From: Gammaproteobacteria bacterium
Lineage (GTDB): Bacteria > Pseudomonadota > Gammaproteobacteria > Steroidobacterales > Foliamicaceae
Length of the DNA stretch: 64,000 nt
Direction: 5' to 3'
Assembly (NCBI GenBank): GCA_011523505.1
Contig: WTGP01000008.1
Location: forward strand, 244,629 to 308,628
Shown: positions 7,048 through 39,438 of the stretch, one piece after another
Layout of the letters: each line of letters begins with the position of its first letter
How positions within the stretch are numbered: position 1 is the first letter of the stretch
The notes under the pieces: model-generated
What the model saw: the letters and a program-made list of their open reading frames with translations, nothing else
Told to the model about the DNA's origin: nothing
Databases searched by the model: none
Program-made: the position numbers and the translations under genes

Positions 7048-8450
7048 GCGCTCAATACCTTGCCGGGATTCATGATCCCGCGCGGATCCACGGCGCGCTT
7101 GAGAGCGCGCATCAACTCGAGCTTGACGGGATCGCCAAGCCGTTCCAGTTCGTCCTTCAGCATCAGGCCCACGCCGTGCTCGGCGCTGAAGCTGCCGTCC
7201 ATCGACCATGCCAGTTCACGCAGTTCGGCGCTCAGCGGCCGGCCCTGCTCCAGGAACCGGTCCGGATCGACGTCCGGCGGACAGGGAACGGAGTAATGCA
7301 GGTTGCCGTCGCCCACGTGCCCGAACGGCACGGGCTCGGCGCCCGCAAAGTGCTTGCGGCACACCTCCAGCGCCGAATCGATGAAGTCGGCAATGCGTTC
7401 CGGCGGCACGGCCAGGTCATGGCGCAGGGCCGGTCCCGACCGGCGCACGGCCTCGGGAACGCCATGGCGCAGGCGCCAGATCGCCTCGCGCTGCGCCTCG
7501 CTGACCGCGCACACGGCATCGAGCAGCCCGCCCTGCTCGCGGGCGTCTTCCAGGAACCCGGCAAGGCGCTCGGCCAGCAGTTCTTCCGGCCCCGCGCCGG
7601 CCGCTTCGACGCAAAGCAGCCAGGGCGCATCGATGTCCCCGGGAATCGGTACCCCGTCCAGGTGCACCCCGCACAATTGCGCGGCCCCGCGTGAAATCAG
7701 TTCAAAGGCATTGAGGTCCTCGCCCAGCGCCGACTGCGCCCCGCGAAATAGCGCAACCGCCTGATCGGCGTCGGCCACGCCCAGAAGCGCGGTAATCCAT
7801 GCTCGCGGTCGCGGGTGCAGGCGCAGCGCGGCCGCGGTGATCACTCCCAGGGTCCCTTCCGCGCCGATGAAGAGCTGCTTGATGTCGTAACCGGTGTTGT
7901 CCTTGGCCAGCGGCTTCAGGTCCGACAGCACCCGGCCGTCCGGCAGCGCGACTTCCAGTCCCAGCACCATGTCGCGCGCCATGCCGTAGCGCAGCACGTG
8001 AATGCCGCCGGCGTTGGTGGACAGCACCCCGCCCAGCTGGCAACTGCCTTCCGAACCCAGGCTCAGCGGAAAGAGGTAGCCGGCCTCGTCGGCGCGTTCC
8101 TGCAGCGTGGCCAGAACGCATCCAGCCTCGGCGGTCAGGCAGCCGGCATTCAGATCGCGCACCCGCCTCTGGCGATGCAGGCTCAGCAGTATCTCGTTCG
8201 CTTGCGAATGGGTGCCGCCGCACAGCCCGGTGCGGCCGCCCACCGGCACCACGCCGACGCCGCGCCTGTTGCAGCAGGCCAGAACGGCGGCGGTTTCCCC
8301 GGCGCTGCCCGGGGCCACCAGCAGCCGCGACTCGCCGTGGTAGCGCCCGCGCGGCTCCTCCAGATACGGCTCAAGCAGCGCAGCGTCGGCAACGCAGTGC
8401 CGCTCGCCGACGATCGAGGCAAGCTCGTGGTGGACGGTCGCCGTGCTCAT
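7044..8450 (-). CDS. FAD-linked D-2-hydroxyacid dehydrogenase (GlcD / D2HGDH-like)
   Basis: Flavoenzyme expected to oxidise a D-2-hydroxyacid such as D-lactate, glycolate or D-2-hydroxyglutarate. The N-terminal half is a PCMH/VAO FAD-binding domain (VVPVGGRTGLCGGT, LGSEGSCQLGGVLSTNAGG, GAEGTLGVITAAALRLHP). The C-terminal FAD-oxidase domain ends with FGHVGDGNLHYS, SFSAEHGVGLM and PRGIMNPGKVL, which include the metal and carboxylate-binding His/Glu residues of this family. 468 residues is usual. Substrate cannot be set from sequence alone; D-2-hydroxyglutarate is attractive because serine or lysine routes generate it. It overlaps lysAC and the upstream perM-like gene by 4 bases each. Confidence 0.88.
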   Translation of the reverse strand: MSTATVHHELASIVGERHCVADAALLEPYLEEPRGRYHGESRLLVAPGSAGETAAVLACCNRRGVGVVPVGGRTGLCGGTHSQANEILLSLHRQRRVRDLNAGCLTAEAGCVLATLQERADEAGYLFPLSLGSEGSCQLGGVLSTNAGGIHVLRYGMARDMVLGLEVALPDGRVLSDLKPLAKDNTGYDIKQLFIGAEGTLGVITAAALRLHPRPRAWITALLGVADADQAVALFRGAQSALGEDLNAFELISRGAAQLCGVHLDGVPIPGDIDAPWLLCVEAAGAGPEELLAERLAGFLEDAREQGGLLDAVCAVSEAQREAIWRLRHGVPEAVRRSGPALRHDLAVPPERIADFIDSALEVCRKHFAGAEPVPFGHVGDGNLHYSVPCPPDVDPDRFLEQGRPLSAELRELAWSMDGSFSAEHGVGLMLKDELERLGDPVKLELMRALKRAVDPRGIMNPGKVLSA

Positions 8451-9508
8451 GGCTCATCCGGAGTTTCCGCCGGCGAGAATTCCTCTTCGAAAAGCCGCCA
8501 GGAAACAAGGAACAGAGCTGCCAGGACCGGCCCGATGACCAGTCCGGAGAACCCGAACACCGACAGCCCGCCGATGGTGGCCAGCAGCACCAGGTAGTCC
8601 GGCAGCCGCGCGGTCCGGCCGACCAGTATCGGCCGCAGCAGATTGTCCGCCAGCCCCACGATCAGGGTGCCGACGATCACCAGGATCAGTCCCTGGACCC
8701 ACATGCCGGATGCGAACAGCCAGATTGCGATCGGCGCCCACACCAGGCCGGGGCCGACCGCGGGTATGACCGACAGCACGCCCATCAGCACGCCGAGCAG
8801 AACCGGGCTGCCGATGCCCAGCAGCGCCAGCGTCACGCCCCCGAGTCCGCCCTGCACGACGCCGATCACGATCAGCGAGGTCACGCTGACCCTGGACACG
8901 GTCGCGAACTGGCCGAGCAGTTCGTATTCGCGCTCGTCGCCCAGCGGCAGGATGCGGACCAGCGTATCGACCAGCTTTTCGCCGTCGCGCAGGAAGAAAA
9001 ACAGCAGGTACAGCATCACCGCCAATTGCAGGAGCAGCTTCAGCGCCCCTTGCCCGGCGGCCACCAGGCCGGTCGCCGCGAAACGGGCGGCGTTGCCCAC
9101 CATCGAAGTCAGCCCGGAACGCAGCTTCTCGAAGTCCAGTCCGAAGTTGTCCAGGATTTCGCGCACCCAGGGCAGCCAGGCGCCGACCGTATCCAGGACG
9201 GCCCCGGGGTCCAGCGCGCCCCCTTCGACGGCGGCGTAGAACTCGCTGGATTCGCGCACCACCGCCCACCCCAGCAGCAGCACCGGCGCCACCACGCCGG
9301 CCAGCACAATGAGGAGAACGGCAGCCGCAGCCAGCGATCGCCTGTTCCAGAGCCGCGGGATCAGGCGCGCATACAGGCCGTGGAAGAGAATCGCCAGCAC
9401 CACCGCCCAGAAGACCGCCAGCAGGAGGTCGACGAGCAGCAGGATGAACGCCGCGGTCACCGCGGCGACCAGCACTAACAGGGAACTGCGCTGAAGGGTC
9501 TGGCCCAT
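8447..9508 (-). CDS. AI-2E family transporter (PerM-like membrane protein)
   Basis: Polytopic inner-membrane protein of the AI-2E/PerM family (some members are Na+/H+ antiporters, one exports autoinducer-2; most are uncharacterised). The N-terminus has two closely spaced hydrophobic helices around LLVLVAAVTAAFILLLVDLLL, then a long periplasmic/amphipathic segment, then a C-terminal helical bundle with LLGVLMGVLSVIPAVGPGLVW and VIVGTLIVGLADNLLRPILVG, both family hallmarks. I use the ATG at 9508 (353 residues); the track's extension would read through the tRNA-Pro gene. First gene of the operon continuing into the oxidase, lysAC and hisE. Confidence 0.9.
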   Translation of the reverse strand: MGQTLQRSSLLVLVAAVTAAFILLLVDLLLAVFWAVVLAILFHGLYARLIPRLWNRRSLAAAAVLLIVLAGVVAPVLLLGWAVVRESSEFYAAVEGGALDPGAVLDTVGAWLPWVREILDNFGLDFEKLRSGLTSMVGNAARFAATGLVAAGQGALKLLLQLAVMLYLLFFFLRDGEKLVDTLVRILPLGDEREYELLGQFATVSRVSVTSLIVIGVVQGGLGGVTLALLGIGSPVLLGVLMGVLSVIPAVGPGLVWAPIAIWLFASGMWVQGLILVIVGTLIVGLADNLLRPILVGRTARLPDYLVLLATIGGLSVFGFSGLVIGPVLAALFLVSWRLFEEEFSPAETPDEP

Positions 9509-18887: not shown

Positions 18888-19676
18888 TTATGCGGGAGCG
18901 GGGGTGAGCGCGAGGACGCGCAGGGGGCTGCCGGAACCTTCTTCCAGCTTGAGCGGCGCGGTGAACAGCACGGCGCCGGTGGGCGGCAGCCGGTCCAGGT
19001 TGTTCAGGCACTGCAGGCCGTACTTGCCGGCGCCGTGCATGTAGTAGTGGCAGGGGTACGGCGGGTTCAGGCGCTGCGCCTGGCCGCTGTCGGTGCCGAT
19101 GGTCTCGGTGCCGAAACCGAGCACGTCGCGCTCGTCCACCAGGAATCGTACGCAATCCACGTCGGGACCCGGCGTGTGCTGGCCGATCTCGTCGTAGTTC
19201 TGAAACGCCACCGGATCGTTGACCCGGCGCGCCCAGCCTGTGTGCATCAGCACCCAGGCGCCCGCGGGTATCCGCCCATGATCCGCTTCCCATTCCTCCA
19301 GGCGCTCGCGGGTCAGCAGGAAGTCTGCGTCGCGCTCGGCGTCCCTGGTGCAGTCCACCACGCAGGCCGGCGCGATCATGTGTTCGGGCGGAATCGTATC
19401 GACCGAGTTATTGGGCAGTTCGCGACCGGAAACCCAGTGGATGGGCGCATCGAAATGCGTTCCGGTGTGTTCGCAAAGCGTGAAGTTGTTCCAGTACCAG
19501 GCAGGGCCGCGGCCGTCGTAGCGGGAGATCTCCTCGCTTCGGTAAGGCAGCGCCTGGCCCATTTCCGGCGGAAGGCTAAGCTGGGGAAACGAGGGGCCCA
19601 GCGTGTGCGTCAGGTCGACGACCTTGAGCTTGTCGGCGGCGATTCCCGCCAGCAGGTCCTGGAGCAGGTCGGTCAC
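18888..19676 (-). CDS. Cyclase-family metal-dependent hydrolase (kynurenine formamidase-like fold)
   Basis: Member of the cyclase family (PF04199 type). The metal site motif HTGTHFDAPIHW is clear, preceded by VVDLTHTLGP and followed by GTDSGQAQRLNPPYPCHYYMHGAGKYGLQCLNNLDRL. Family members hydrolyse N-formylkynurenine or isatin and related cyclic or acyl substrates. I choose GTG 19676, which overlaps the upstream SDR stop as GTGA (262 residues), over the track start 33 bases upstream inside the SDR gene. It is the last gene of the coupled catabolic operon and may release a product by C-C, C-N or ester cleavage; the substrate is unknown. Confidence 0.82.
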   Translation of the reverse strand: MTDLLQDLLAGIAADKLKVVDLTHTLGPSFPQLSLPPEMGQALPYRSEEISRYDGRGPAWYWNNFTLCEHTGTHFDAPIHWVSGRELPNNSVDTIPPEHMIAPACVVDCTRDAERDADFLLTRERLEEWEADHGRIPAGAWVLMHTGWARRVNDPVAFQNYDEIGQHTPGPDVDCVRFLVDERDVLGFGTETIGTDSGQAQRLNPPYPCHYYMHGAGKYGLQCLNNLDRLPPTGAVLFTAPLKLEEGSGSPLRVLALTPAPA

Positions 19677-20401
19677 AGCGTCAGTGAACCCACGGAAGTG
19701 CCGCCGCAAACGTAGAGCGTCTGCCCGGTCACGAAGCCGTTGCCGCGGTCGAGGAAGAACAGGGCGGCGCGGGCGACGTCGGCGGGCCGGCCCAGGCGGC
19801 CGATCGGAATCGAGGAAGCCAGCTTGCCGGCGCGTTCGCTGCCCGGGGGCACGACGTCGTCGAACATTTCGGTCTGGGCGATCGGGCCGGGCAGGATGAC
19901 GTTGGCGGTCACCTTCTGCGGCGCCAGCTCCAGCGCCCAGGTGCGCGCCAGGCCCAGCATGCCGGCCTTGGTGGACGCGTAGGCGGTGCGCTTGGCCAGC
20001 CCCACGACCGCGCGGCTGGACATGAGCACGATGCGGCCCCAGCCGGCCTCGCGCATGCAGTCGAGACTGGCCTGCACCATCGCTACCGCCGCGCCCATGT
20101 GCAGGCGCGCCAGCGCGTCCATGTCTTCCTGCGTGACTTCCGGCAGCGGCCTTTCGCGGATCACGCCCGCGTTGTGCACCAGCCGGTTGGCCGGAACGCT
20201 TGCAGCCGCTTCCTCGAAGGCCTGCCGGGTCGCTTCGGGATCGGTGAGATCGACCGCGATCGATTTCACCGCGGCGGAGTCGGTCGCGGCGGGCCGGCGC
20301 GAGAAACAGATCACCTCGCTGCCCTGCTCCACCAGCATGTCCACGAGACAGGCGCCGATGCCGGAGCTCGCGCCCGTCAGCCAGACCCGGTCCCCGCTCA
20401 T
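19673..20401 (-). CDS. Short-chain dehydrogenase/reductase
   Basis: NAD(P)-dependent oxidoreductase of 242 residues with all classical SDR elements: WLTGASSGIG (Rossmann loop), VHNAGV, the catalytic Ser in VLMSSRAVVG and Tyr-x3-Lys in YASTKAG, and NVILPGPIAQT after it. The start is ATG 20401, overlapping the DUF35-SDR gene (ATGA); the 457-residue track ORF extends into that gene in the wrong frame. Probably oxidises or reduces a hydroxyl/keto group on a CoA-linked or free intermediate, given its operon. Confidence 0.9.
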   Translation of the reverse strand: MSGDRVWLTGASSGIGACLVDMLVEQGSEVICFSRRPAATDSAAVKSIAVDLTDPEATRQAFEEAAASVPANRLVHNAGVIRERPLPEVTQEDMDALARLHMGAAVAMVQASLDCMREAGWGRIVLMSSRAVVGLAKRTAYASTKAGMLGLARTWALELAPQKVTANVILPGPIAQTEMFDDVVPPGSERAGKLASSIPIGRLGRPADVARAALFFLDRGNGFVTGQTLYVCGGTSVGSLTL

Positions 20402-21648
20402 GCGGTCTGCGACTCCAGCGCCAGTTCGCGCTCCAGCACCTTGGGGTTGTGCTTCCACCGCTCCAGCCATTCCTTCGCGACGTCCCCCGGGAACAGGTCC
20501 TCGACGCCGTCGCGCAATCCCTGGACGATGTCCCGGGCCAGCCTTTCCGGCGCCAGCTTGGGCGGCGGCAGGGGCTGGTTCCATTCCTCGTCGATGGGGC
20601 CGGGGAACACGTTCACGACCCGGATTCCCGCGTCCTGCATCTCCGCGCGCAGGCATTGCGAGAGCGACAGCGCCGCGGCCTTCGAGGCCGAATACGTGCC
20701 CTGCGGCGGGTAGTTGCTGAGCGCGTAAACGCTGAGCACGTTCACCCAGGCCGTGGCCGACGCGCCGCCGTCGGCGCCGCGCGCGCGCATGGCCGGGCCG
20801 AAGGACTGGGCCAGGCGCAACAATCCCAGGTAGTTGACCTCCATTTCCCGCCGGGCCAGTTCCGCCCCGCCGCTGCCGGCTATGCCCTGGGTCCGGTGCA
20901 CCTCGGCGTTGTTGACGAGAATGTCCACCCGCCCGCCGATCTCCGCGCCGATGCGCTTGACCCCGCGTTCGTCGGTCAGGTCCAGCGGGATGACGGTGAC
21001 CTGGGGCAGCTTCTCGATGGCCTCCTGGCCCGCGTATTTCTTCCACGGCTCGGCCTGCCCCACCCAGATGACGGCCGCGCCGGCCGCCGCGAGCTCCCGT
21101 ACCAGCGCCTGGCCGACCCGGCTCTTGCCGTCGGTCACCAGCACCTTGCGGTGTTCGGGATCGCAGGAGAATTCCCCGTGACGTGGATCCGTGCTCATGT
21201 CTCCCAGTTCATCCGCGGGGAGCGCCACCAGCACGCCTCGGCCCGCCTTGTCCAGTTTAGCCGTAACGCGCACCGCGGCGGGCGGCGCCGGGCAATCGCG
21301 GTGCAGGTGCGCCACGACCACCGGACCCTCCTCGAGCCGGGTCAATCCCAGTCTCCAGGGCAGGCGTTCGCGATAGAAAGGATCGTTGCTGTGATGCAGG
21401 GTCGTGTGCGCCAGCAGCTCGCCGCGCCCCGACATCGGCGTCCAGAGCAACTCCTCGGAAAGACAGCCTCGGCAACTGTCCACCGGCGGGTATTGCACCC
21501 GGCCGCAGGACTCGCAGCGCTGCAGCGCAAACCGCCCTTCCGCCGCCTGCGCCGTCAGGCCCAGCGCCGTGCGGCTGCGCGGCATCGGCGGCGTCAGCGG
21601 CTGCCGCGTGCGCAGGATGGGGTTCTTGAGGCGGGGCCTGGCGCGCAT
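20398..21648 (-). CDS. DUF35 (zinc ribbon/OB-fold) - SDR fusion protein
   Basis: Two-domain protein of 416 residues. Residues ~30-155 form a DUF35 unit: a rubredoxin-like zinc ribbon with CESC (45-48) and CRGC (59-62), then an OB fold (GRGELLAHTTLHH ... EEGPVVVAHLHRD). Residues ~165-416 form an SDR: YSASK near 319 with the upstream catalytic Ser in NVLSVYALS. Its cofactor loop is degenerate (VTDGKSRVGQ in place of TGxxxGxG) and NNAG reads NNAE, so nucleotide binding may be altered. DUF35 proteins are obligate partners of thiolase-fold enzymes, and the thiolase-like gene lies three bases upstream. The fusion suggests that the SDR acts on the product released from that complex. Both activities are inferred. 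Confidence 0.85.
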   Translation of the reverse strand: MRARPRLKNPILRTRQPLTPPMPRSRTALGLTAQAAEGRFALQRCESCGRVQYPPVDSCRGCLSEELLWTPMSGRGELLAHTTLHHSNDPFYRERLPWRLGLTRLEEGPVVVAHLHRDCPAPPAAVRVTAKLDKAGRGVLVALPADELGDMSTDPRHGEFSCDPEHRKVLVTDGKSRVGQALVRELAAAGAAVIWVGQAEPWKKYAGQEAIEKLPQVTVIPLDLTDERGVKRIGAEIGGRVDILVNNAEVHRTQGIAGSGGAELARREMEVNYLGLLRLAQSFGPAMRARGADGGASATAWVNVLSVYALSNYPPQGTYSASKAAALSLSQCLRAEMQDAGIRVVNVFPGPIDEEWNQPLPPPKLAPERLARDIVQGLRDGVEDLFPGDVAKEWLERWKHNPKVLERELALESQTA

Positions 21649-21651
21649 GGC

Positions 21652-22815
21652 TCAGGGGCGGGCAAGGACGGCGGCGGCGCTGCACAGGCCGCGGTCGTAG
21701 TTGATCATGCCGAAACCGGAAACGGCGCCGTGCGTGGCGTCGGCAACCTGCCGGCCGAGCGGACGGCGAAGAAGCTGGCGCATCGCCTCCACCAGCCCAA
21801 GGAACCCGCCGGCGGCGCCCGCCTGGCCCATCGAGAGCTGGCCGCCGCAGGTGTTCAGCGGACAGTCGCCGTCATACGCGAACTCATGCTCGCGAACGAA
21901 TGCCGCACCCTCGCCCGTAGGACAGAAGCCCAGTTCCTCGATCTGCATCAGCGTGATCACCGGATAGTCGTCGTAAGCCTGGAAGAAATCCATGTCGCCC
22001 GGGCCCACGCCCGACTGCCCCCAGAGTTCGTCGCGGTCCAGCGCCCAGCCTCCGCGCATCTGCACGGGGTCGTCGGGAAAGGCATTGTGCCGTTCGATCG
22101 CGCCGAGCACCCGCACGGAGTCCAAACCCAAAGCGTCGGCGCGCTCCGCCGTCATGACAAGGTAGCCGTCCGCCCCGGCGCAGGGCATGACGCAGTCGAA
22201 CAGGTGCAGCGGCTCGGCTATGACCCGCGCGCCGAGGTATTGGTCAAGATCGAGCGGCTTGCGCAGCAATGCATGAGGGTTGTCCATGGCGTTGCGACGC
22301 TGGGCCACGCACAACTTGCCGAAGTCCTCCCGCTCGACGCCGAACTGCCGCATCCACCAGTCGGTGATGAAGGCGAAGCTGGCGTTGGGGCCGCCCGATC
22401 CGTACGGATAGACGGCGTCCTGGGCGAAGCGGCTGAAAGTGGAAAGCGTGCGCCGGAACGTGTCCACGTGATTGGTGTCGCCGGCGATGCAGGCGACGAT
22501 CTCCGCGTCGCCCGCCTGCACAGCGCGGGCCGCCCGCCTGAGGCAGACGATGCCGGAGGCGCCGCCCATCGGTACATGGTCCAGCCAGCGCAGCGACATC
22601 CCCAGGTGCTGCGTCAGGCCAACCGCCGTGTCCGGGCCGAGCGTGAAGCTGGATATGCCCAGGCCGTCGATGTCGTCCTTCTTCAACCCGGTGTCCTTGA
22701 GCAGCGCCGCCAGCGCCCGCGCTATCCACCAGTGCGCGTCGTGCGTGGAATAGCGCCGGTACGGAACCGTCACCGGCGCGGCCAGAGCGACGCCCTCGTA
22801 GTCGTGCCGGGTCAT
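21652..22815 (-). CDS. Thiolase-fold protein lacking the N-terminal catalytic Cys (SCP2/lipid-transfer type; possible acyl-CoA aldolase)
   Basis: 387 residues of the non-decarboxylating thiolase superfamily. At the position of the nucleophilic Cys (CASG in thiolases) the sequence reads MGGASGIVCLRRA near residues 82-94, so Cys is replaced by Gly. The later motif NTCGGQLSMGQAGAAGG corresponds to the usual NxxGGxxxxGHPxGATG but lacks the catalytic His. A C-terminal Cys lies in YDRGLCSAAAVLA. Similar Cys-less members (Ltp2) form retro-aldolases with a DUF35 partner in steroid side-chain degradation; a DUF35 protein follows immediately here. I therefore favour an acyl-CoA aldolase over a true thiolase. 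ATGA overlap with the ligase gene. Confidence 0.82.
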   Translation of the reverse strand: MTRHDYEGVALAAPVTVPYRRYSTHDAHWWIARALAALLKDTGLKKDDIDGLGISSFTLGPDTAVGLTQHLGMSLRWLDHVPMGGASGIVCLRRAARAVQAGDAEIVACIAGDTNHVDTFRRTLSTFSRFAQDAVYPYGSGGPNASFAFITDWWMRQFGVEREDFGKLCVAQRRNAMDNPHALLRKPLDLDQYLGARVIAEPLHLFDCVMPCAGADGYLVMTAERADALGLDSVRVLGAIERHNAFPDDPVQMRGGWALDRDELWGQSGVGPGDMDFFQAYDDYPVITLMQIEELGFCPTGEGAAFVREHEFAYDGDCPLNTCGGQLSMGQAGAAGGFLGLVEAMRQLLRRPLGRQVADATHGAVSGFGMINYDRGLCSAAAVLARP

Positions 22816-24464
22816 GCCGCCCTCGACGGGACGGGCCGTTTCAGCTTGCGGGTGTCCACGCAGTCGGCGCGGTCCAGCAGGTCCGCGGCCAGTGATTTCA
22901 GCGCCGCCCGGTCGAGCTTCTCCGTTGTAGTGTGGGGCAAGGCGTCCACGAACGCGACGTAACCGGGCGCCTTGAAGTAGGCAAGCCGCTCGAGACAGTA
23001 GCGCACCAGGTCTTTCGCCGCCGACTGCGCATCGCCGGAGTCCACGCTACCGGCCTTCAGCCGGATGCAGGCAAACACCTCGTCTCCGCGAATCTCGTCC
23101 GGCGCTGCCACGACGCCCGCTTCGGCGACGGCATCGTGCTCGGCCAGCACTCCTTCGACCTCCACGGCGGCGATGTTCTCGCCGCTGCGCCGGATCATGT
23201 TGCTCTTGCGGTCGACGAAGTGCATGTCGCCGTCGGCATCGCGCGCCACGACATCGCCGGTATGGAACCATCCGCCCGCCCATGCGGCATCGGTGGCCGC
23301 GGCGTCCCTGAAATAACCGGAGAAAAAGCCGAGCCGCGGATCGCCGCCGGCGTGGCGCACCCACAACTCGCCCGGCTGATCCGGGCCCACGTCGTTTGCC
23401 CGGTCATCGACGATGCGCACGTCCACCGCCGGCAAAGGCCGTCCGAAACAGGCGGTGCCCCGCTTGCGCGGTTCGCGGTTGGCGATCATCGCGGCGCTCG
23501 CGCCGGTCTCGGTCATCGCCCAGGCCTCCACCAGCGGAAACCCGAAGCGCTCCTCGAACGGCACGTGCTGGCGGCTGCCGACGCCCGCGCCGAACCCGAA
23601 TCGCACGCGGTGACGGCGCTCGGCCGGGTCCTCCTCCAGTTTGAGCAGTATCGCGGGCATCACGCCCAGGTAATGGACGATAGTCGCGCCGGATTCCCGG
23701 ACTTCCCGCCACCAGGTACGCGGGTGAAACCGGTCCAGCGGCACGATGCAGCCGCCGTTGACCAGCATGACCATGGTCGAGCAGGCCATCGCGTTCATGT
23801 GGTGCATCGGCAGCGGCGTGATCAGGCAGTCGCCGGCCTCGTCCAGCGAGCACAGTCCTCCCAGCGCCGTATACCAGTCCCCGATCATCGTGAAATAGCG
23901 GTTGCTGAGCATGCAGCCCTTGGGCTTGCCGGTCGTGCCCGACGTATACAGAAGCGCGCATTCCCGATCGGCGGCATCCGCGGGCTGCCGGCCGGCCCCG
24001 GACTGCGACCGCAATTGCGGAAGGTCTTCGCCAGGCGTGCGCACCGGCACATCCAGCCCTTCCGCCTGCACCACCTCCCGCAGTTCGTCCACCCGCTCCG
24101 GCAACGCGATCACAAGACTTGCCTCGCTGTGCGCGAGCGCGTAGCCCAACTCGGCCGAGCGCCAGGCCGGGTTCATCGGCGCGGCAGATATCCCCAGCGC
24201 GTTCAGCGCCAGCCAGTGCAGGAACATCTCCGGGCGGTTCTCCAGCAGCAGCGCGACGCGTTGTGGACCGCCGTCGGCTATTCTGGAGAATTCGCCGATC
24301 AGCGCCTGCGTGCGTTCCCAGGCTTCGGCATAACTCAGGTCGCCCGCCTCGATGCCCGTCCGCTCGGCCGTGTCCCGCGTAATGCGGAGAAACGGCTTAT
24401 CGGCGTGCCGCCGCGCCGCGTCCTCCAGCACGCGCGCCACGGTGCCCGGGGCTGCGACACTCAC
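22812..24464 (-). CDS. AMP-forming acyl-CoA synthetase
   Basis: ANL-superfamily ligase that activates a carboxylic acid to its CoA thioester via an acyl-adenylate. The P-loop LLYTSGTTGKPKG lies near residues 170-182; further motifs are VEAWAMTETGAS, GWFHTGDVVARDADGDMHFVDRKSNMIRRSGENIA (A8 hinge) and FKAPGYVAFVDALPHTTTEKLDR with the C-terminal catalytic Lys. 550 residues. It starts with GTG overlapping the oxygenase beta-subunit stop. The operon implies a ring or side-chain carboxylate as the substrate; chain length cannot be read from sequence. Confidence 0.92.
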   Translation of the reverse strand: MSVAAPGTVARVLEDAARRHADKPFLRITRDTAERTGIEAGDLSYAEAWERTQALIGEFSRIADGGPQRVALLLENRPEMFLHWLALNALGISAAPMNPAWRSAELGYALAHSEASLVIALPERVDELREVVQAEGLDVPVRTPGEDLPQLRSQSGAGRQPADAADRECALLYTSGTTGKPKGCMLSNRYFTMIGDWYTALGGLCSLDEAGDCLITPLPMHHMNAMACSTMVMLVNGGCIVPLDRFHPRTWWREVRESGATIVHYLGVMPAILLKLEEDPAERRHRVRFGFGAGVGSRQHVPFEERFGFPLVEAWAMTETGASAAMIANREPRKRGTACFGRPLPAVDVRIVDDRANDVGPDQPGELWVRHAGGDPRLGFFSGYFRDAAATDAAWAGGWFHTGDVVARDADGDMHFVDRKSNMIRRSGENIAAVEVEGVLAEHDAVAEAGVVAAPDEIRGDEVFACIRLKAGSVDSGDAQSAAKDLVRYCLERLAYFKAPGYVAFVDALPHTTTEKLDRAALKSLAADLLDRADCVDTRKLKRPVPSRAA

Positions 24465-24946
24465 AGGAAAAGCTGTATGGAAGGCAGCGCCGCGTCGCGG
24501 TTCAGCAATTCGATGCGCTTGACCGCGATCTTCAGACCGCCGTCCTCAAGGCGAAGGTCGTGGTGCGCGACGCCGCCCAGCATGAACTGCTCGTCCAGCC
24601 GTGTCTCGAGATAGACGAACGGCGTGCGCATCGCATATTCGCCCGCATCGTCGTCCCGCCCGACGAGTTCGGGGCGCTGCAGCACATGCTGGCAGAAGCT
24701 CGGCTGCTGCTGCGAATGCGACAGCGGGTTCTTCAGCCGCTCGATGCGCACCTTCAGCAGAAACCTGTCCTCGCAGAACAGCGAGGTGTGGCTGTGCGGG
24801 TCCGTCTGCCCGCGCACAAGCGGCATCCAGTACAGCGCGTCCTCCGTGAACAAGTCGTACCATTCGTCCAGCCGCTTCTCATCAATCAGCCGCGCCTCGC
24901 GATAAACGAACCGCGCCAACTCCGCCTTCCCCGGCCCCTTCGTCAC
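24461..24946 (-). CDS. Aromatic-ring-hydroxylating dioxygenase beta subunit
   Basis: Non-catalytic small subunit of Rieske oxygenases, an NTF2-like cone fold (161 residues). Motifs: ELARFVYREARLIDEKRLDEWYDLFTEDALYWMPL, typical of the family N-terminus, and RTPFVYLETRLDEQFMLGGVAHHDLR near the C-terminus. The start is GTG 24946, forming a GTGA overlap with the alpha subunit; the longer track ORF is antiparallel noise from inside the alpha gene. It is co-translated with the alpha subunit. Confidence 0.9.
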   Translation of the reverse strand: MTKGPGKAELARFVYREARLIDEKRLDEWYDLFTEDALYWMPLVRGQTDPHSHTSLFCEDRFLLKVRIERLKNPLSHSQQQPSFCQHVLQRPELVGRDDDAGEYAMRTPFVYLETRLDEQFMLGGVAHHDLRLEDGGLKIAVKRIELLNRDAALPSIQLFL

Positions 24947-26274
24947 GCGCCGGCCTCGCCGCGGGGAAGCATGTACTTGAGCCAGGCACGGAACTGGCCG
25001 CGCATCGAAACTTCGCTGGTGCCGTTGTAGACGCCGGCTATGCCCTCGTCCTCCGCGGGGTCGTAGTTGCGATGCAGGCTGACCCAATCGTTGCCCTGCG
25101 CGTGCAGACCCTGCTGGATCTCGCTGTAGCAGTGCAGGTCGTCGTGCCCCACCACCGAGGTAGGCGCGTTGATCAGCCGCGAATACGTCATCGTGCGTTT
25201 GAGCAGTTCCTCCGGCGCGCCCGCCAGGCGGAAAGTCCAGCTTTCCAGCACCGTCCTGTTGGCCGCCAGCGGACGCGCGACGCGGATCGCCTGGATCGCG
25301 CCCTTGATCGTGAGGCTGGGGAAATAGACCGTGTTGTGGCGGTTCTCGCCGAGAATCGCGTGGGCCCGTTCCTCGCCGTAGGCTTCGATCATCCGCCGCT
25401 CGTACTCCGGCTCCGCGGAGTACTTCGAGTGGATCGAGAACTTGACGCCGGTATAGGAGTGTCCGTTCTCGTAGATCTTCACGCCCATGTTGTCGAAAAA
25501 GTCGTAGTCGTTGACGAAGGGCGCGAACTGCTGCACCACCATCGGCGGTTCCCCTCCGTCGCCCTCCTCCTCCCAGAGCCGCTTGGCGATACCGGCCGAG
25601 GACTGGTGCGCCACCATCGGGTGCATCGCGTCGTTCAGGTTCTCCACGAACATCTTCCAGTTGCAGTCGTGGTCGTAGCGCAGCACGCCGCCGGCGATCT
25701 CCAGCCGGCCCTCCGGCGAGCGGTCGGCCATGTTGTCGATCGAACTCAGGGAATCGCCGAAATAGTCGTGAAAATCCGGTCCCTCGTTGCTGAGGCGCAC
25801 GAACACGAAGCCCCGGTAGATTTCCTGATTGGGCACCGGCGTCAGACCCTTCCAGTGGGCCGAATCGGAGATCTCCGTTCCCCGGTAGCCGCCCTTCATC
25901 GGGACCGTCCTTAGGCTGCCGTCAAGGCGATAGGTCCAGCCGTGGTACGGACATCGCAGCGCGCTCCCGCAGTTCCCTTCGACCGCGCTGACCACGCGCG
26001 TGCCCTTGTGCGCGCAACGGTTCAGAAAAACCCGCACCTGGTCGTCGCGTCCCCGCAGCATCACCAGCGGCGAGCCGGCGATGTCCGCCGTATAGAAGTC
26101 GCCCCGCTTCGGCACCTGGCTGTCATGACCCATGTAGATCCAGGTGTTGCGCCACAGCCGTTCCAGTTCCAGCTCGTAGAGTTCCTCGGATATGTACAGG
26201 TCGCGATGCACGGCGTCGGGCCGGACCAGGGCGCGCAGTGCGTCGGGATTGCTGGCGTATGAACGGGCGGTCAT
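24943..26274 (-). CDS. Rieske aromatic-ring-hydroxylating dioxygenase alpha subunit
   Basis: Catalytic subunit with an N-terminal Rieske [2Fe-2S] domain (CAHKG near residue 86 and CPYHGW near 108) and a C-terminal mononuclear iron domain (ENLNDAMHPMVAH, giving the D-x2-H-x4-H ligands near residue 215). The enzyme would insert dioxygen into an aromatic or ring substrate using electrons from a ferredoxin/reductase, neither of which is encoded in the window. I use ATG 26274 (MTARSYASN, 443 residues); the extension to 26337 adds no homology. It is the first gene of the catabolic operon ending at the cyclase gene, and is divergent from the serine hydrolase cluster. Confidence 0.94.
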   Translation of the reverse strand: MTARSYASNPDALRALVRPDAVHRDLYISEELYELELERLWRNTWIYMGHDSQVPKRGDFYTADIAGSPLVMLRGRDDQVRVFLNRCAHKGTRVVSAVEGNCGSALRCPYHGWTYRLDGSLRTVPMKGGYRGTEISDSAHWKGLTPVPNQEIYRGFVFVRLSNEGPDFHDYFGDSLSSIDNMADRSPEGRLEIAGGVLRYDHDCNWKMFVENLNDAMHPMVAHQSSAGIAKRLWEEEGDGGEPPMVVQQFAPFVNDYDFFDNMGVKIYENGHSYTGVKFSIHSKYSAEPEYERRMIEAYGEERAHAILGENRHNTVYFPSLTIKGAIQAIRVARPLAANRTVLESWTFRLAGAPEELLKRTMTYSRLINAPTSVVGHDDLHCYSEIQQGLHAQGNDWVSLHRNYDPAEDEGIAGVYNGTSEVSMRGQFRAWLKYMLPRGEAGA

Positions 26275-26351
26275 CGTTGCTGTCGCTATCGCGTAAGCCG
26301 CAGATTCTAGCCCGCGCAGGGCACGATGAGGCGGCACAAGCCTAACGCGCC

Positions 26352-27599
26352 ATGGCAGGAAGAACCGGCGGATTGGGGGATATGATTACGCGCTCGGCAG
26401 GGGTTGCAAACGGATTCGTGAAGAGATTGCTGCGCATCTTCGGACTGACCGTCGCCTGGGCGGTGGGCGGAGTCGTGGGCCTGGTCCTGCTGGTCGTGCT
26501 GGGCTTCCTGGTGGCCAAGCCGACCGAGACCATTCGCCTGTTCGGCCAGTTCGCGGGAAACCGTCCCGGTCACATGCAACGGGTTCCCGGCGCCCCGGAG
26601 CAGCCGCTTCCCAAGGCGTCTTTCGGCGAACGCGCCCTGTCCGTCGAGAGCCTGCAAGCGGCCATGGACTACGGCGCCCAAACCGGGTCCGACGCGCTGA
26701 TCGTCTGGCGCGGCGGCCGCGTTCAGCTCGAGCACTATTACGAGGGCGCCGACGAAAACACGCTAACCTCGACCCAGTCCATGCACAAGTCGGTGCTGGC
26801 CCTGCTGGTGGGCGTTGCGATCGCCGAGGGGCACATCGGCTCCGCGGACGATCCGATCAGCCGTTATCTGCCCGAGTGGGCTGGGGACGAGCGCGCAGCA
26901 ATCACGATTCGCCAGGCGCTCTGGCAAAGCAGCGGCATCGATTTCCCGACCTTCGCCTTCGGCAGCCTGGGGTCGATGATGGGCCTGCTGATCGGCCAGG
27001 ACATGCGTCCGATCACGTTCGAACAACAGGCGGTGGAACCGCCGGCCACAAGTTTCGAATACAACAGCATCAACCCGCTGGTCCTGGGCCTGGTCATCGA
27101 AAAAGCCACCGGCCGGCCGTATGCGGAATACCTGTCCGAAGCGCTCTGGAAGCCGCTGGGCGCCGGCGACGGCTGGGTGCAGATGGACACCGAGGGCGGC
27201 ATGGCCCGAAGCTACTGCTGCCTGGACATTCCGGCCCGCGGCTGGCTTCGTCTCGGCCTGCTGCACCTCGAAGACGGCCGCGCGAACGGCCGCCAGCTCG
27301 TGCCGGAGGAGTGGATCGCGGCCGTCCGCACGCCCGGCCCCAACAACCCGAACTACGGTTTCCTGACCTGGCTGGGCACGGAACACGTGGAGCAGCGCGC
27401 CTACAACTCGAAGGCTTCGCTGCGTGCATACCACTCGGAACCGTTCGCCGCCGATGACGTTACCTATTTCGACGGATTCGGCGGACAGCGCGTCTATATC
27501 ATTCCGAGCGCCGACATGGTGATCGTGCGCACCGGCGCGCTGGCCACGGACTGGGACGATTCGCGTCTGCCCAACCTGTTGCTGGCGGGACTGAGATGA
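26352..27599 (+). CDS. Serine hydrolase, beta-lactamase/penicillin-binding fold (paralogue 1)
   Basis: Class C beta-lactamase-like hydrolase of 415 residues anchored by an N-terminal hydrophobic helix (GLTVAWAVGGVVGLVLLVVLGFLVA). The nucleophile motif is SMHK (S143, K146), the second motif lies in FEYNSINPLVLG (Tyr retained), and the third element reads FDGFGGQRVYIIP in place of KTG. It shares long segments with the two downstream paralogues, notably AYHSEPFAADD and the CC pair in RSYCCLDIPA. Relatives include esterases and oligomer hydrolases (for example nylon oligomer hydrolase), so beta-lactamase activity should not be assumed. A second possible start is ATG 26382. Confidence 0.85.
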   Translation: MAGRTGGLGDMITRSAGVANGFVKRLLRIFGLTVAWAVGGVVGLVLLVVLGFLVAKPTETIRLFGQFAGNRPGHMQRVPGAPEQPLPKASFGERALSVESLQAAMDYGAQTGSDALIVWRGGRVQLEHYYEGADENTLTSTQSMHKSVLALLVGVAIAEGHIGSADDPISRYLPEWAGDERAAITIRQALWQSSGIDFPTFAFGSLGSMMGLLIGQDMRPITFEQQAVEPPATSFEYNSINPLVLGLVIEKATGRPYAEYLSEALWKPLGAGDGWVQMDTEGGMARSYCCLDIPARGWLRLGLLHLEDGRANGRQLVPEEWIAAVRTPGPNNPNYGFLTWLGTEHVEQRAYNSKASLRAYHSEPFAADDVTYFDGFGGQRVYIIPSADMVIVRTGALATDWDDSRLPNLLLAGLR

Positions 27600-27613
27600 A
27601 AGGAGACTTCCTT

Positions 27614-28891
27614 ATGAAAACGGGACATGGCATTGCGGCCGCCGTGATGCTGACCATCGGCGTCGCTGCCGCCCAGGAGCGGCCGAATACGCAAATGACG
27701 CCCGAGGAAATCCAGGCCCGGGTGGACTGGGTCAACGAGGTGGAGGCGCAGGACTTCCATTTCTGGCGGCGCTGGCGCGATCAGCCCGACCAGACCGCGT
27801 TCCGCCAGCCCCAGACCTGGTACAACCCCATGATCCTGGTGGACGGGGGCGTCTCCCAGCCGTTCTTCCCCTCTGCCGGCCCGGACGAGCCGCCCACCAT
27901 CGATCCCGAGGCCGTCGCCGTTGCCACGGCCTACGCAATGGAGCGGGAAACGCAGGCCTTCATGATCTATCACAAGGGCAAGATCCGTCACGCCGAATTC
28001 ATGGACGGATTTCACGAGAGCTCGCCGATCAGCTCCCATTCCTGGGTGAAGACACTGCACGGAATCGTCGCCGGCTTCGCACTGGCTGACGGCGATATCG
28101 GGAGCCTGGACGACCCGGTCGAGAAGTACATCCACGAGTGGAAAGGCGACCCGCGCGGGCAGATCACGGTGCGCCAGGTGCTGCACAACACCACCGGCCT
28201 GGAACTGCCGTTCGGCCAGCGTGGCCAAGGCCCCCAGCCGTACGCGAAGAGCATGCAACTGGTGGAGGGAAGCGATATCTACGGCACGGTGCTTTCGTTC
28301 GAGTTGGCGGAAGAACCGGGCACGACCTTCGCGCACAACAACCCCAACACGCAGCTCGCCGGCATGATCATCCACCGCGCCACCGGCAGGAACTTCGCGC
28401 ACTACCTCGGTGAGAAGTTCTGGCGGCCGCTGGGCGCGCAGCGCGGCGCCATGCGCCTGGACGGCCTTGAGGGCAATGTCATCTCGTATTGCTGCTTCCT
28501 GTCGGCGCCGGCCGACTGGATGCGGGTCGCGCACCTGCTCATGAAGGACGGCAAGCTGCCGGACGGCACGCAGCTTCTGCCGGACGGCTGGGTGGACGAA
28601 ATGCTCACCGGCTCGGAACCCAATCCGAACTACGGATTTCAGATCTGGACCGACACGGTGTACATGGAGCGGCGCCCGTACTACCCGAGCATGCCCCCGA
28701 ACTTCGCCAACTACCACTCGGAGCCCTTCGCCGTCGACGACCTGTTCTACCTGGACGGCGGCGGCAAGGTGCGGGTCTGGATCAGCCCCAAGCTGGACCT
28801 CATCGTGCTGCGCATGGGCTATCCGCCGCCGCGCGACAAGGGCTTCGACGAAGCCGTCATCCCCAACGCCGTCATTCGCGGCATCCTCTAG
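27614..28891 (+). CDS. Secreted serine hydrolase, beta-lactamase fold (paralogue 2)
   Basis: 425 residues. I choose ATG 27614 because AAAGGAG lies 8 bases upstream and the product then begins with a clean signal peptide (MKTGHGIAAAVMLTIGVAAAQE); the track start 18 bases upstream overlaps paralogue 1. The nucleophile motif is SWVK (S143), but the usual Tyr of the second motif is His (FAHNNPNTQLAG). The terminal segment NYHSEPFAVDDLFYLDGGGKVRVWI parallels the other copies. Co-directional with paralogue 1 and the following DUF1801 gene, so one operon is likely. Confidence 0.85.
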   Translation: MKTGHGIAAAVMLTIGVAAAQERPNTQMTPEEIQARVDWVNEVEAQDFHFWRRWRDQPDQTAFRQPQTWYNPMILVDGGVSQPFFPSAGPDEPPTIDPEAVAVATAYAMERETQAFMIYHKGKIRHAEFMDGFHESSPISSHSWVKTLHGIVAGFALADGDIGSLDDPVEKYIHEWKGDPRGQITVRQVLHNTTGLELPFGQRGQGPQPYAKSMQLVEGSDIYGTVLSFELAEEPGTTFAHNNPNTQLAGMIIHRATGRNFAHYLGEKFWRPLGAQRGAMRLDGLEGNVISYCCFLSAPADWMRVAHLLMKDGKLPDGTQLLPDGWVDEMLTGSEPNPNYGFQIWTDTVYMERRPYYPSMPPNFANYHSEPFAVDDLFYLDGGGKVRVWISPKLDLIVLRMGYPPPRDKGFDEAVIPNAVIRGIL

Positions 28892-30215: not shown

Positions 30216-31562
30216 ATGCTCAAGCGCATACTCAGAGGACTTGCCAGGACCGGCAAGTGGACGCTGATGGTCATCGCCGTAATCGGCGTGCTGGTCTATC
30301 TGCCTTCGCGGCTCGGCTGGTACGGCATCTACGCCAAGCGCTACGTCATCTCGCTGTCCGGCAATCCCATGAGCCCCGCACGCGCCTGGTACGACCCGCA
30401 GGAACTGGTGACCGGCAGCGACTACATGCCGCTGGAAGCCTGGCCGGAGGAGGAAAACCCGATCGATCCGGCCGTATACCAGGAAGCCGCCTCGTGGGCC
30501 GAGCAGCAAAGAAGCGATTCGCTGGTGGTGCTCTACAAGGGACGGCTGGCGCATGCCAGTTATTTCAACGACCAGGCCCCCGAGTCGGAGTTCAGCACCC
30601 ACTCGCTCACCAAGGTCCTGACCTCGATTCTCGTGGGTCACGCCATCGCCGACGGCCACATGGAGTCGGTCGATCAGCCGGCCGCGGATTTTCTCCCTGA
30701 ATGGGACACGGACGAACGCCGCGGCATTACCGTTCGGGACCTCCTGAACATGGCCGGGGGCCTTGAGGAGACGTTCGCCTTCTATCCGGGATCGGCGCGG
30801 CTGGCGCGCACGATGGGGACCGACATCGTTACCGCCAACCTCGACGTCGGCATCTACGCGCCCCCGGGAACGGCGTTCTCGCACGCCAATCCCAACAGCC
30901 AGGTGGCGGGAATCGTGGTGGAGCGCGCTACGGCCAAGCGTTTCGCCGACTACCTGTCCGAGAAGCTTTGGTCGCCGCTGGGGCTGCGCGACGGCTGGCT
31001 GCTCCTCGACCGCGAGGACGGCATGGTGCACACCGACTGCTGCATGTGGACCGCGATCGAGGACTGGGCGCGCATCGGACAGGCGCTGATGCAGAACGGC
31101 TGCTACGCGGGCCAGCAGGTCATTCCGGCCGGCTGGGTGGACGAGATGACCACCCCGTCGGCGGCCAACGAGAACTACGGGATGCAGCTATGGCTGGGAA
31201 CGTCCCATGAGCCCCTGCGCAAGTACGATCCGAGCATCGAGTTCATGGGCAATGTGCATTCGGAGCCGTTCGCGGCCGATGACGTGTTCTTCCTCGACGG
31301 CGCGGGCGACCAGCGGCTTTACATGATCCCGTCGCGGGAACTCGTGATCCTGCGCACCGGCAAGGACGGTCCTGAGTGGGACGACTCGCTGCTCCCCAAC
31401 TGGTTCACGCGGGCCGTGGATTCGATCAGCGGCCAGCCGGCGGAAACGCTCCCGACGCGCGCCGACCTGAACGCCGCCTGCCTCGGCTCAGGACAGGTCG
31501 TGGCCGACGCACAGCACCGTGCATCCGCCGTCGGTGGCGGGCTTGCGCGGCATGCGGAGTGA
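30216..31562 (+). CDS. Membrane-anchored serine hydrolase, beta-lactamase fold (paralogue 3)
   Basis: 448 residues behind a strong AAGGAG ribosome site. An N-terminal hydrophobic helix (WTLMVIAVIGVLVYLPS) anchors it. The nucleophile motif is SLTK near residue 130 and the second motif is HAN (AFSHANPNSQVAG), again with His for Tyr as in paralogue 2. The tail HSEPFAADDVFFLDGAGDQRLYMIP matches the other copies. The last ~45 residues extend past the homologous region into DNA that also encodes, on the other strand, the end of the cupin-like gene (75-base convergent overlap). Confidence 0.83.
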   Translation: MLKRILRGLARTGKWTLMVIAVIGVLVYLPSRLGWYGIYAKRYVISLSGNPMSPARAWYDPQELVTGSDYMPLEAWPEEENPIDPAVYQEAASWAEQQRSDSLVVLYKGRLAHASYFNDQAPESEFSTHSLTKVLTSILVGHAIADGHMESVDQPAADFLPEWDTDERRGITVRDLLNMAGGLEETFAFYPGSARLARTMGTDIVTANLDVGIYAPPGTAFSHANPNSQVAGIVVERATAKRFADYLSEKLWSPLGLRDGWLLLDREDGMVHTDCCMWTAIEDWARIGQALMQNGCYAGQQVIPAGWVDEMTTPSAANENYGMQLWLGTSHEPLRKYDPSIEFMGNVHSEPFAADDVFFLDGAGDQRLYMIPSRELVILRTGKDGPEWDDSLLPNWFTRAVDSISGQPAETLPTRADLNAACLGSGQVVADAQHRASAVGGGLARHAE

Positions 31563-33697: not shown

Positions 33698-34864
33698 CTA
33701 CTCTAACGCGTCGGCGAGCCCGAGCAGACTGTCGACGTTGTGGCCCGGGCGATGTTCGTGCACCGAGGGCAGCAGCGCACGCACGCCGCGGGCGCGCGGT
33801 TCGAAGTCCTTGTAGCCCAGCAGCGGGTTCAGCCATACCAGGCGCTTGCAGGAACGGCGCAGGCGCGCCGCCTCGAAGCGCAGTTCCTCCACGTAGGCCC
33901 GCTCCAGGCCGTCGCTGAACAGCAGCACCATGCCGGGCCGGGCCAGCACCCGGCGCGACCATTGCCGGTTGAACTGGCCCAGGGCCGACGCGATGCGCGT
34001 GCCTCCCTCCCAGTCGGGAGCGGCCCTGAGCGCCGCGGCTGTCGCCACGTCCGCGTCCCGCCCCCGCAGTTCGCGGGTCACGCGGGTCAGGCGGGTGGCG
34101 AAAACGAATGCCTCGACGTTGCGGCGGGCGCTGCACAGCGCGTGGGCGAAATGGATCGCCATGCGCGCATAGGTGGTCATGGAGCCCGAGACGTCGAACA
34201 GCAGCACCAGCGACATGGGTTCGGCGCGGCGCGCCTTGCGCTTCAGCCGCACCAGCTCGCCGCCCGATGCCAGGCCCGCCCGCAGCGTGGCCTGCAGGTC
34301 GATCCGCGGTCCGTGCGCGGCGGCCTTGTAGCGCCGGCCGATGCGTTTCGGGCAGAGCACGCCGCGGCGCAGCAGTTCCCGGGCCTGAGCCTGTTCCTCC
34401 GGCGTCATCTGCGCGAAGTCCGTGGACGCAAGCCGCTCCTGCGGCGAATAGCCGACGCCGGCAACGGCCCGCTCGGCGCCGGGCGCGGCGATCAGGTTGG
34501 ATGCGCTGTCCATGGCCCGCAGCATCCGCAGCGCGCCGGGCGGAGGCTTGGCCTCGCCCATGGAACGCAGGCCCAGTTCCTGCAGGTCCCCGAGCCTTGC
34601 AAACGCCGCGGCGTTGCCGAAGAACATCGCAAACGCGCAGTCGAAAAGCACGCCCTCGGCCGGACCGGCGGTCAGGACCGAACGCAGCGCGGCGGAAAAC
34701 TCGGCGCGATTGCCGATGTCGACGCGCCTGGCGGCCTGCAGCGCCAGCGCGCTCCGGCCCACGCCCAGCGGCAGCCCCGCCGCCCGCAGCGTGCGCACAA
34801 AGCTGACGATGCGCTCGGAGAGGCCCGGGACGCCCTCCCCCCGGGGGTCAGGCAGAGGCGGCAA
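33698..34864 (-). CDS. coxE: CoxE-like VWA-domain protein
   Basis: 388-residue protein with a C-terminal von Willebrand A domain; the MIDAS motif is FDVSGSMTTYARM near residue 223, and WEGGTRIASALGQFNRQW supplies the second site. CoxE works with the MoxR-type ATPase CoxD to insert the bimetallic or sulfurated active site into CO dehydrogenase-like molybdenum hydroxylases. The start is TTG, overlapping the coxD-like stop by 17 bases. The N-terminus (LSERIVSFVRTLRAAGLPLGVG) matches the family. Confidence 0.88.
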   Translation of the reverse strand: MPPLPDPRGEGVPGLSERIVSFVRTLRAAGLPLGVGRSALALQAARRVDIGNRAEFSAALRSVLTAGPAEGVLFDCAFAMFFGNAAAFARLGDLQELGLRSMGEAKPPPGALRMLRAMDSASNLIAAPGAERAVAGVGYSPQERLASTDFAQMTPEEQAQARELLRRGVLCPKRIGRRYKAAAHGPRIDLQATLRAGLASGGELVRLKRKARRAEPMSLVLLFDVSGSMTTYARMAIHFAHALCSARRNVEAFVFATRLTRVTRELRGRDADVATAAALRAAPDWEGGTRIASALGQFNRQWSRRVLARPGMVLLFSDGLERAYVEELRFEAARLRRSCKRLVWLNPLLGYKDFEPRARGVRALLPSVHEHRPGHNVDSLLGLADALE

Positions 34865-35735
34865 GGAGGCGATCGACGACCGACTCGTCGACCTGCTCCA
34901 GGTCTTCCTGGTACTTGAGCAGGGCGCCTAGGGTCTCAGAGACGGCGTGCGTGTCCACTTCGCGGGCGCCCATGGCCATCAGCGATTCGGCCCAGTCCAG
35001 CGTCTCCGACACGCCCGGCGACTTGAACAGGCCTTCCTTGCGCAGGCCCTGGACGAAACCGACCACCTTTGCGCGCAGGACTTCGGGCAGTTGCGGCACG
35101 CGGGCCTTGAGGATGCGTTCCTCGGCGGCTTGCGTCGGGTAGTCCACCCAGCAGTAGAGGCAGCGGCGCTTGAGCGCGTCGTGCACCTCGCGGGTGCGGT
35201 TGGACGTCAGCACGACGACCGGCGCCTCGGGCGCCCGGACCTCTCCCAGTTCCGGAATGCTCATCCGGAAATCGGACAGGAATTCAAGGAGATAAGCTTC
35301 AAACGGCTCGTCGGCCCGGTCCAGTTCGTCCACCAGCAGCACCGGCGGTCCCTCGGGACGGGGCGAAAGCGCCTCGAGCAGCGGGCGTTCGATCAGGAAT
35401 TCGCGGGAATAGAGGTCCTGCGCCATCTCGTCCACGCGCTTCTCGGCCTCCGCCAGGCGAATGGCGAGGATCTGGCGCGCATGGTTCCACTCGTACGCCG
35501 CCCCGGCCAGGTCCAGGCCCTCATGGCACTGCAGTCGGATGAGCCGGCGGCCCAGCGCCGCGGCCAGCGCGACGCCCAGTTCGGTCTTGCCGACGCCGGC
35601 CTCGCCCTCCAGGAACAGCGGGCGCCTGAGGCTGAGGGCCAGGAAGACGGCGGTGCTCAGGCGGTCGCCGGCGATGTAGTCCTGCCCCTCGAGCAGGCCG
35701 CGAACCTGCTCCACGGAGTCCGGTATTGCGGTCAA
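34848..35735 (-). CDS. coxD: CoxD-like MoxR-family AAA+ ATPase
   Basis: AAA+ ATPase of 295 residues with Walker A GEAGVGKTE near residue 45, Walker B LLVDELDRAD near 135 and sensor 1 VVVLTSNRTREV. MoxR-type ATPases pair with VWA proteins as maturation chaperones for metalloenzymes. I select TTG 35735, just after the coxM stop, since the frame before it is inside coxM; GTG a few codons in is an alternative. Location between coxM and coxE is that of CO dehydrogenase-type operons. Confidence 0.88.
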   Translation of the reverse strand: MTAIPDSVEQVRGLLEGQDYIAGDRLSTAVFLALSLRRPLFLEGEAGVGKTELGVALAAALGRRLIRLQCHEGLDLAGAAYEWNHARQILAIRLAEAEKRVDEMAQDLYSREFLIERPLLEALSPRPEGPPVLLVDELDRADEPFEAYLLEFLSDFRMSIPELGEVRAPEAPVVVLTSNRTREVHDALKRRCLYCWVDYPTQAAEERILKARVPQLPEVLRAKVVGFVQGLRKEGLFKSPGVSETLDWAESLMAMGAREVDTHAVSETLGALLKYQEDLEQVDESVVDRLLAASA

Positions 35736-35740
35736 ACCTG

Positions 35741-36538: not shown

Positions 36539-36565
36539 TGCTCTGTTCTCCTCTACTCGCCGGTC

Positions 36566-38958: not shown

Positions 38959-38962
<4 letters not shown>
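36566..38962 (-). CDS. coxL: Molybdenum hydroxylase large subunit, form II CoxL-like
   Basis: 798-residue catalytic subunit binding the molybdopterin cytosine dinucleotide cofactor. I use ATG 38962 ([22 protein letters not shown]), overlapping coxS as ATGA. The active-site loop near residue 380 reads AYRGAGRPE, the form II signature; true CO dehydrogenases carry AYxCSFR with a Cys binding copper, which is missing here. Also present: [15 protein letters not shown] (cofactor binding) and [14 protein letters not shown] with the catalytic Glu. Substrate is unknown: form II enzymes are poorly characterised and may oxidise purines, aldehydes or N-heterocycles. The neighbouring amidase and hydantoinase genes fit a heterocycle substrate, but that is speculation. 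Confidence 0.93.

Positions 38963-39438
<476 letters not shown>

Follow-up and report, generated by a model that had tools for sequence, protein, structure and literature searches.

Can an SDR domain with a degenerate cofactor loop, fused in one chain to a DUF35 domain, still act as a reductase on what the neighbouring aldolase-like protein releases? The question is raised by a gene at positions 20398..21648 of the window, which is the whole stretch of 64,000 nucleotides of gammaproteobacterial DNA that was analysed. A sequence-only reading had proposed that the aldehyde or ketone set free by the neighbour could be passed to the fused reductase. The gene, identified below as iadH, lies on the minus strand, as do all other genes of its operon and all motifs described here.

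The iadH open reading frame starts with ATG, has no internal stop codons and encodes 416 amino acids. The DUF35 domain is formed by a zf-ChsH2 zinc ribbon (residues 34-67, 21448..21549, Pfam 5.5e-11) with the four zinc ligands Cys45, Cys48, Cys59 and Cys62, and by an OB_ChsH2_C OB-fold (residues 69-127, 21268..21444, 7.9e-12). The SDR-fold domain occupies residues 168-416 (20401..21147), with an adh_short match over residues 168-359 (4.7e-29). Each of the three matches exceeds the Pfam gathering cut-off. The AlphaFold2 model, computed with 30 homologues, has two confidently predicted domains (pLDDT 88.9, pTM 0.89). In a Foldseek search with this model the C-terminal part was found to resemble the NADP-bound SDR 5U4S with a TM-score, normalised by target length, of 0.92-0.94. 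The DUF35 part is matched best by the DUF35 domain of ChsH2 (6OK1_B, 4.7e-7) and also by that of Shy (9MYR_B, 2e-4). Of eight further genomes from the genus, seven have the same undivided reading frame (87-97% identity), and the fusion is a single reading frame in 132 homologues. The fusion is thus real, and a frameshift or an assembly error joining two separate genes, which would have undone the earlier proposal, is ruled out.

The motifs quoted in the earlier reading (DGKSRVG, NNAE and an intact Tyr-x3-Lys) are all present in the IadH of the window. The dinucleotide-binding loop, canonically TGxxxGxG, reads TDGKSRVG (residues 172-179, 21112..21135), and the canonical NNAG reads NNAE (residues 246-249, 20902..20913). 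The catalytic Tyr319 and Lys323 are retained in the sequence YSASK (residues 319-323, 20680..20694).

The gene of the fusion belongs, as iadH, to an iad operon for the degradation of the auxin indole-3-acetate, arranged iadD-E-F-G-H-J-I between 26337 and 18888; the gene names D, E, F, G, H, I and J follow PMC12633357. This identity rests on the matches of the two outermost genes, together with F, G and a second SDR gene situated between them. The product of iadD (24943..26337), a Rieske oxygenase alpha subunit, matches the Variovorax paradoxus IadD structure 9O71 (E 1e-188), a structure assigned by its own paper to IadDE of CL014. The product of iadI (18888..19709), of the cyclase family (PF04199), matches the isatin hydrolases 5NMP (4e-104) and 5NNB (7e-103). 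Between them are iadE, a Rieske beta subunit (open reading frame 24461..25087, the true start being probably further downstream; Ring_hydroxyl_B, 2e-24), iadF, an AMP-forming acyl-CoA ligase (22812..24464; AMP-binding, 4e-59), the thiolase-fold, aldolase-like iadG (21652..22815) and iadJ, an SDR with the intact motifs TGASSGIG, HNAG and YASTK (19673..20401). The order D-E-F-G-H, accompanied by I and J, is conserved across the loci compared. A steroid side-chain cluster, the known setting of DUF35-aldolase pairs, was considered and rejected because of the iadD and iadI matches.

The operon of the window is iad-like but without iadC: searching its genome, which is 95% complete, with the Roseibium reductase gave no match at 1e-10. 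The iadC gene is accessory and was reported to be dispensable for degradation in Variovorax (PMC12633357). No homologue of a PDR/VanB-type reductase was found in the same 95% complete genome, so the electrons for IadDE must come from an unrelated reductase. Three genes of the beta-lactamase family (PF00144), probably esterases, adjoin the operon on the opposite strand (26352-27599, 27596-28891 and 30216-31562), and the region 33698-39142 holds genes for a molybdenum enzyme like xanthine dehydrogenase or CO dehydrogenase together with CoxE-like and AAA maturation genes. The closest named records among the matches listed are gammaproteobacterial MAGs (isolates RHO1, COS2 and CAR4), from whose isolate names we presume that the bacterium is probably associated with sponges.

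The fusion is neither rare nor an orphan. Scanning 84,980 species genomes turned up 412 related stretches; the 80 that were examined all match the query over nearly its full length. Plasmids of Roseibium, Sulfitobacter, Paracoccus, Ruegeria, Agrobacterium, Novosphingobium and others carry 34 full-length IadH matches. At least 132 homologues from Alpha-, Beta- and Gammaproteobacteria have the fused architecture. Their genes adjoin that of the thiolase-like IadG, G and H being adjacent in nearly all loci, and the isatin hydrolase gene iadI is nearly always beside them. Of 399 genomes sampled evenly across the phylum, eight have IadH, and exactly the same eight have IadG. The concern that the architecture might be common and already characterised was therefore borne out in part: it is common and has been studied genetically as iadH, but its domain make-up is not described in the literature found. 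The terms DUF35, OB-fold and SDR are absent from the text of PMC12633357 and PMC10374108, and no description of the DUF35-SDR fusion in IadH was found in the open-access literature, although a paper outside it may note the DUF35 domain.

On Agrobacterium pusense pR76 and Pukyongiella p1, G, H and I occur without D, E and F in the stretch examined, and G-H-I thus looks like a core module. Their neighbours are either a TPP-binding protein and a zinc dehydrogenase or racemase-family proteins, which suggests a further substrate for the aldolase-isatin hydrolase module in these two replicons. The plasmid of Sulfitobacter sp. THAF37 carries a second thiolase paired with a stand-alone OB-fold (DUF35-like) protein just downstream of the iad operon (7749-9227 of the locus).

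The motif table comprises 132 IadH sequences; as these are not independent, counts are also given for the 42 clusters that they form at 80% identity. The first glycine of TGxxxGxG is found in none of the 132 sequences, the second in three and the third in 123, and the glycine of NxAG is likewise found in only three. The catalytic Tyr is present in 31 sequences, and Tyr together with Lys in 21 (6 of 42 clusters). In most homologues the site of YSASK reads FxxxK, YxxxQ, HxxxH and the like, the Tyr position being filled by Y, F, H, T, A or V and the Lys position by K, Q, N, H, A, M, C, E or G. The state of the dyad has changed at least five times on the tree. The catalytic Ser is kept in 128 sequences. 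Not one sequence, and not one cluster, has all SDR motifs intact together, whereas the matched control IadJ, a stand-alone SDR of the same operons, has them intact in 94 of 94 sequences (32 of 32 clusters). The zinc-binding Cys4 set of IadH is complete in all 132. The degenerate loop is thus no quirk of the lineage of the window.

These losses bear on the proposal, put forward in outline by the sequence-only reading and by a 2025 preprint (PMC12633357), that IadH is a working alcohol dehydrogenase or isatin reductase: IadG would release isatin, and the SDR domain would reduce it with NAD(P)H to dioxindole. The fold is intact in the model, and the clade of the window keeps Tyr, Lys and Ser, so that residual activity is possible there. 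The dyad has nevertheless been lost in most of the family, including all 26 Variovorax sequences, which read FxxxK, and the first loop glycine is gone throughout. The Roseibium protein has FxxxN, with neither Tyr nor Lys, and no loop glycine at all, and can hardly be the reductase in that organism. The loss of Tyr alone does not establish that cofactor binding has gone. The SDR of known structure closest to IadH by sequence and fold, 5U4S from Burkholderia cenocepacia, has Leu at the catalytic Tyr position and was nevertheless solved as an NADP complex; among the losses, that of the glycine motif alone therefore bears on cofactor binding. That protein is stand-alone and keeps NNAG, whereas the IadH of the window is fused and has NNAE. 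The SDR subfamily of 5U4S may hold further redox-dead members.

The SDR domain is not simply decaying. Its mean entropy of 1.33 bits compares with 1.24-1.49 bits for the DUF35 part, so the two are equally conserved. R252, R290 and Q358 are invariant, W356, W202 and R278 nearly so, and P363 is invariant or nearly so. To judge by sequence position, several newly conserved residues belong to stretches that form the walls of the cofactor cleft in an ordinary SDR: R252 after NNAE, G197 and W202 after beta2, and W356-Q358 after PGP. Our reading of this pattern is that the domain would have lost its redox function and retained another one, rather than drifting towards loss. The retained function might be purely structural, the domain stabilising DUF35 or IadG or driving oligomerisation while the old cleft stays free of ligand. 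The loss of the catalytic and cofactor residues is in keeping with this, and ChsH2, whose DUF35 likewise has a fused domain devoid of catalytic residues, sets a precedent (PMC11321319). However, the conserved residues along the cleft suggest a site for a ligand or partner, and a purely structural role is considered rather unlikely.

The sequence-only reading of IadG as aldolase-like and ketone-releasing is supported by its closest relatives of known structure. The best PDB match is 9MYR_A (1e-46), which we take to be Sal of Comamonas testosteroni on the grounds of its name, the DUF35 chain that accompanies it and its YDCY motif, followed by the thiolase-fold protein 4U4E and by Ltp2 (6OK1_A, 2e-37). 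Both Sal and Ltp2 were co-crystallised with DUF35 partners (PMC12329534). IadG has the features of the aldolase type: a thiolase fold without the nucleophilic Cys, and the base Tyr in a YDxx motif. Gly85 occupies the Cys position in an alignment to the thiolase-type 7YVY, which has the Cys. The motif itself is YDDY (residues 281-284, 21964..21975), found in 94 of 95 IadG sequences, the remaining one being gapped; its equivalents are YDCY in Sal and YDHF in Ltp2 (PMC12329534).

The catalytic acid of IadG appears to differ from those of both relatives. The Cys of YDCY is essential in Sal (PMC12329534), and IadG has Asp at the position of Sal Cys304. It also lacks a second Tyr like Tyr344 of Ltp2, having instead the conserved GGQLSxGQ that is present in Sal too. 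The acid would thus be a different residue, perhaps Asp283. IadG is predicted to work like Sal and Ltp2 while belonging to neither by its catalytic acid.

An IadG that is a true thiolase, with a 3-oxoacyl-CoA as substrate and IadH as the maker of the 3-oxo group, would agree with the thiolase fold of the protein and with its published annotation as acetyl-CoA acetyltransferase or ketothiolase (PMC12633357). This is highly improbable, however, given Gly85 in place of the nucleophile, YDDY in place of HDCF (PMC12329534), and an aldolase as the nearest structure. The chemistry is also unfavourable: C3 of dioxindole-3-acetate is a tertiary alcohol, which cannot be oxidised to a ketone unless a bond is cleaved.

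We consider it likely that, in iad auxin degradation, IadH provides the aldolase IadG with its DUF35 partner while carrying a conserved but redox-dead SDR domain. Dioxindole-3-acetyl-CoA is a beta-hydroxyacyl-CoA with a tertiary alcohol, and its retro-aldol cleavage to isatin and acetyl-CoA is redox-neutral. In the proposed pathway, dioxindole-3-acetic acid would be produced by IadDE(C) and the intact SDR IadJ, as indicated by published genetics and metabolomics, and IadF would convert it to the CoA thioester, a step published as likely from annotation. IadG, together with IadH acting through its DUF35 domain, would then split the thioester into isatin, the ketone in question, and acetyl-CoA. 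IadI would hydrolyse isatin to isatinate, which would be carried on to anthranilate. The SDR domain would be a pseudoenzyme that keeps its fold and a conserved, re-decorated cofactor cleft. Its role, the least certain part of the scheme, is probably that of a scaffold, or of a site where isatin or CoA is bound or handed over. We infer the IadG-IadH complex, its aldolase reaction, isatin as the product and the role of the cleft. A more specific version, in which the decayed cleft binds isatin (or CoA) and hands the reactive ketone from IadG-DUF35 to IadI within a three-protein G-H-I complex, is tentative and on balance doubtful.

In Roseibium algicola, the gene next to iadH, whose product is the IadH with FxxxN and no loop glycine, encodes an IadI identical at 249 of 257 positions to LaIHA (5NNB), an enzyme crystallised with isatinate and of published isatin hydrolase activity (PMC6117287); this near-identity concerns the substrate of the next step and not the fused protein. 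With IadI an isatin hydrolase, isatin need not be reduced. Mutants of iadF, iadG, iadH and iadI accumulate C10H9NO4, which the authors interpret as dioxindole-3-acetic acid, and Variovorax also yielded C8H7NO3, whose composition fits isatinate (PMC12633357).

An observation in favour of an isatin reductase is that C8H7NO2, the formula of dioxindole, and not isatin, accumulates when IadI is deleted; it was attributed to IadFGH, which were read as reductive (PMC12633357). We reinterpret this compound as isatin reduced by some other enzyme and most visible without IadI, and the accumulation means that our model needs another such reductase. Its dependence on IadFGH would be expected just as much if IadH served the aldolase and nothing else. 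With the first loop glycine lost everywhere, the dyad lost in most homologues, IadJ intact in the same operons and an isatin hydrolase encoded there too, the proposal of a working fused reductase is not supported and is regarded as improbable. The model is in conflict with the reductive step and the alcohol dehydrogenase of the 2025 preprint (PMC12633357), and this published label for IadH is probably wrong.

In Variovorax paradoxus CL14, IadH is encoded at the equivalent position of an iad operon (PMC12633357, PMC10374108); it is required there for the conversion of IAA to anthranilate (PMC12633357) and has been published only as 'alcohol dehydrogenase'. The Variovorax homologues are 62-65% identical to the IadH of the window over the full length, but have FxxxK in place of YxxxK. 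The operon and the gene are known; no description of the architecture and of its consequence for the pathway was found in the open-access literature.

The kind of system, a DUF35-aldolase complex, is already known. In Sal-Shy of C. testosteroni (9MYR), a thiolase-fold aldolase is paired with a DUF35 domain at the N-terminus of the protein encoded by the neighbouring gene and performs a retro-aldol reaction on a beta-hydroxyacyl-CoA, as proposed for IadG-IadH. However, Shy carries an active MaoC hydratase as its second domain and a zinc finger of the C3H1 type, whereas IadH has an SDR fold and Cys4, and Sal has YDCY where IadG has YDDY. In Ltp2-ChsH2 (6OK1), the substrate of the DUF35-bound aldolase is a tertiary C17 alcohol, from which cleavage yields a ketone, and dioxindole-3-acetyl-CoA is likewise a tertiary alcohol. 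ChsH2 resembles IadH in that its DUF35 is fused to a domain without catalytic residues, but this domain is MaoC and the DUF35 is C-terminal; Ltp2 itself differs from IadG by YDHF and the second Tyr.

IadH extends the range of DUF35 fusions by an SDR fold and would be a further case, after ChsH2, of a DUF35-fused domain that lacks catalytic residues. Root bacteria can remove auxin by means of the iad operon, and root-associated strains are being engineered to carry it. Its steps from dioxindole-3-acetate to isatin have so far been assigned by annotation only. If the model is true, the IadG-IadH step would be redox-neutral, the presence of an isatin hydrolase downstream would be explained, and dioxindole would be predicted as a side product.
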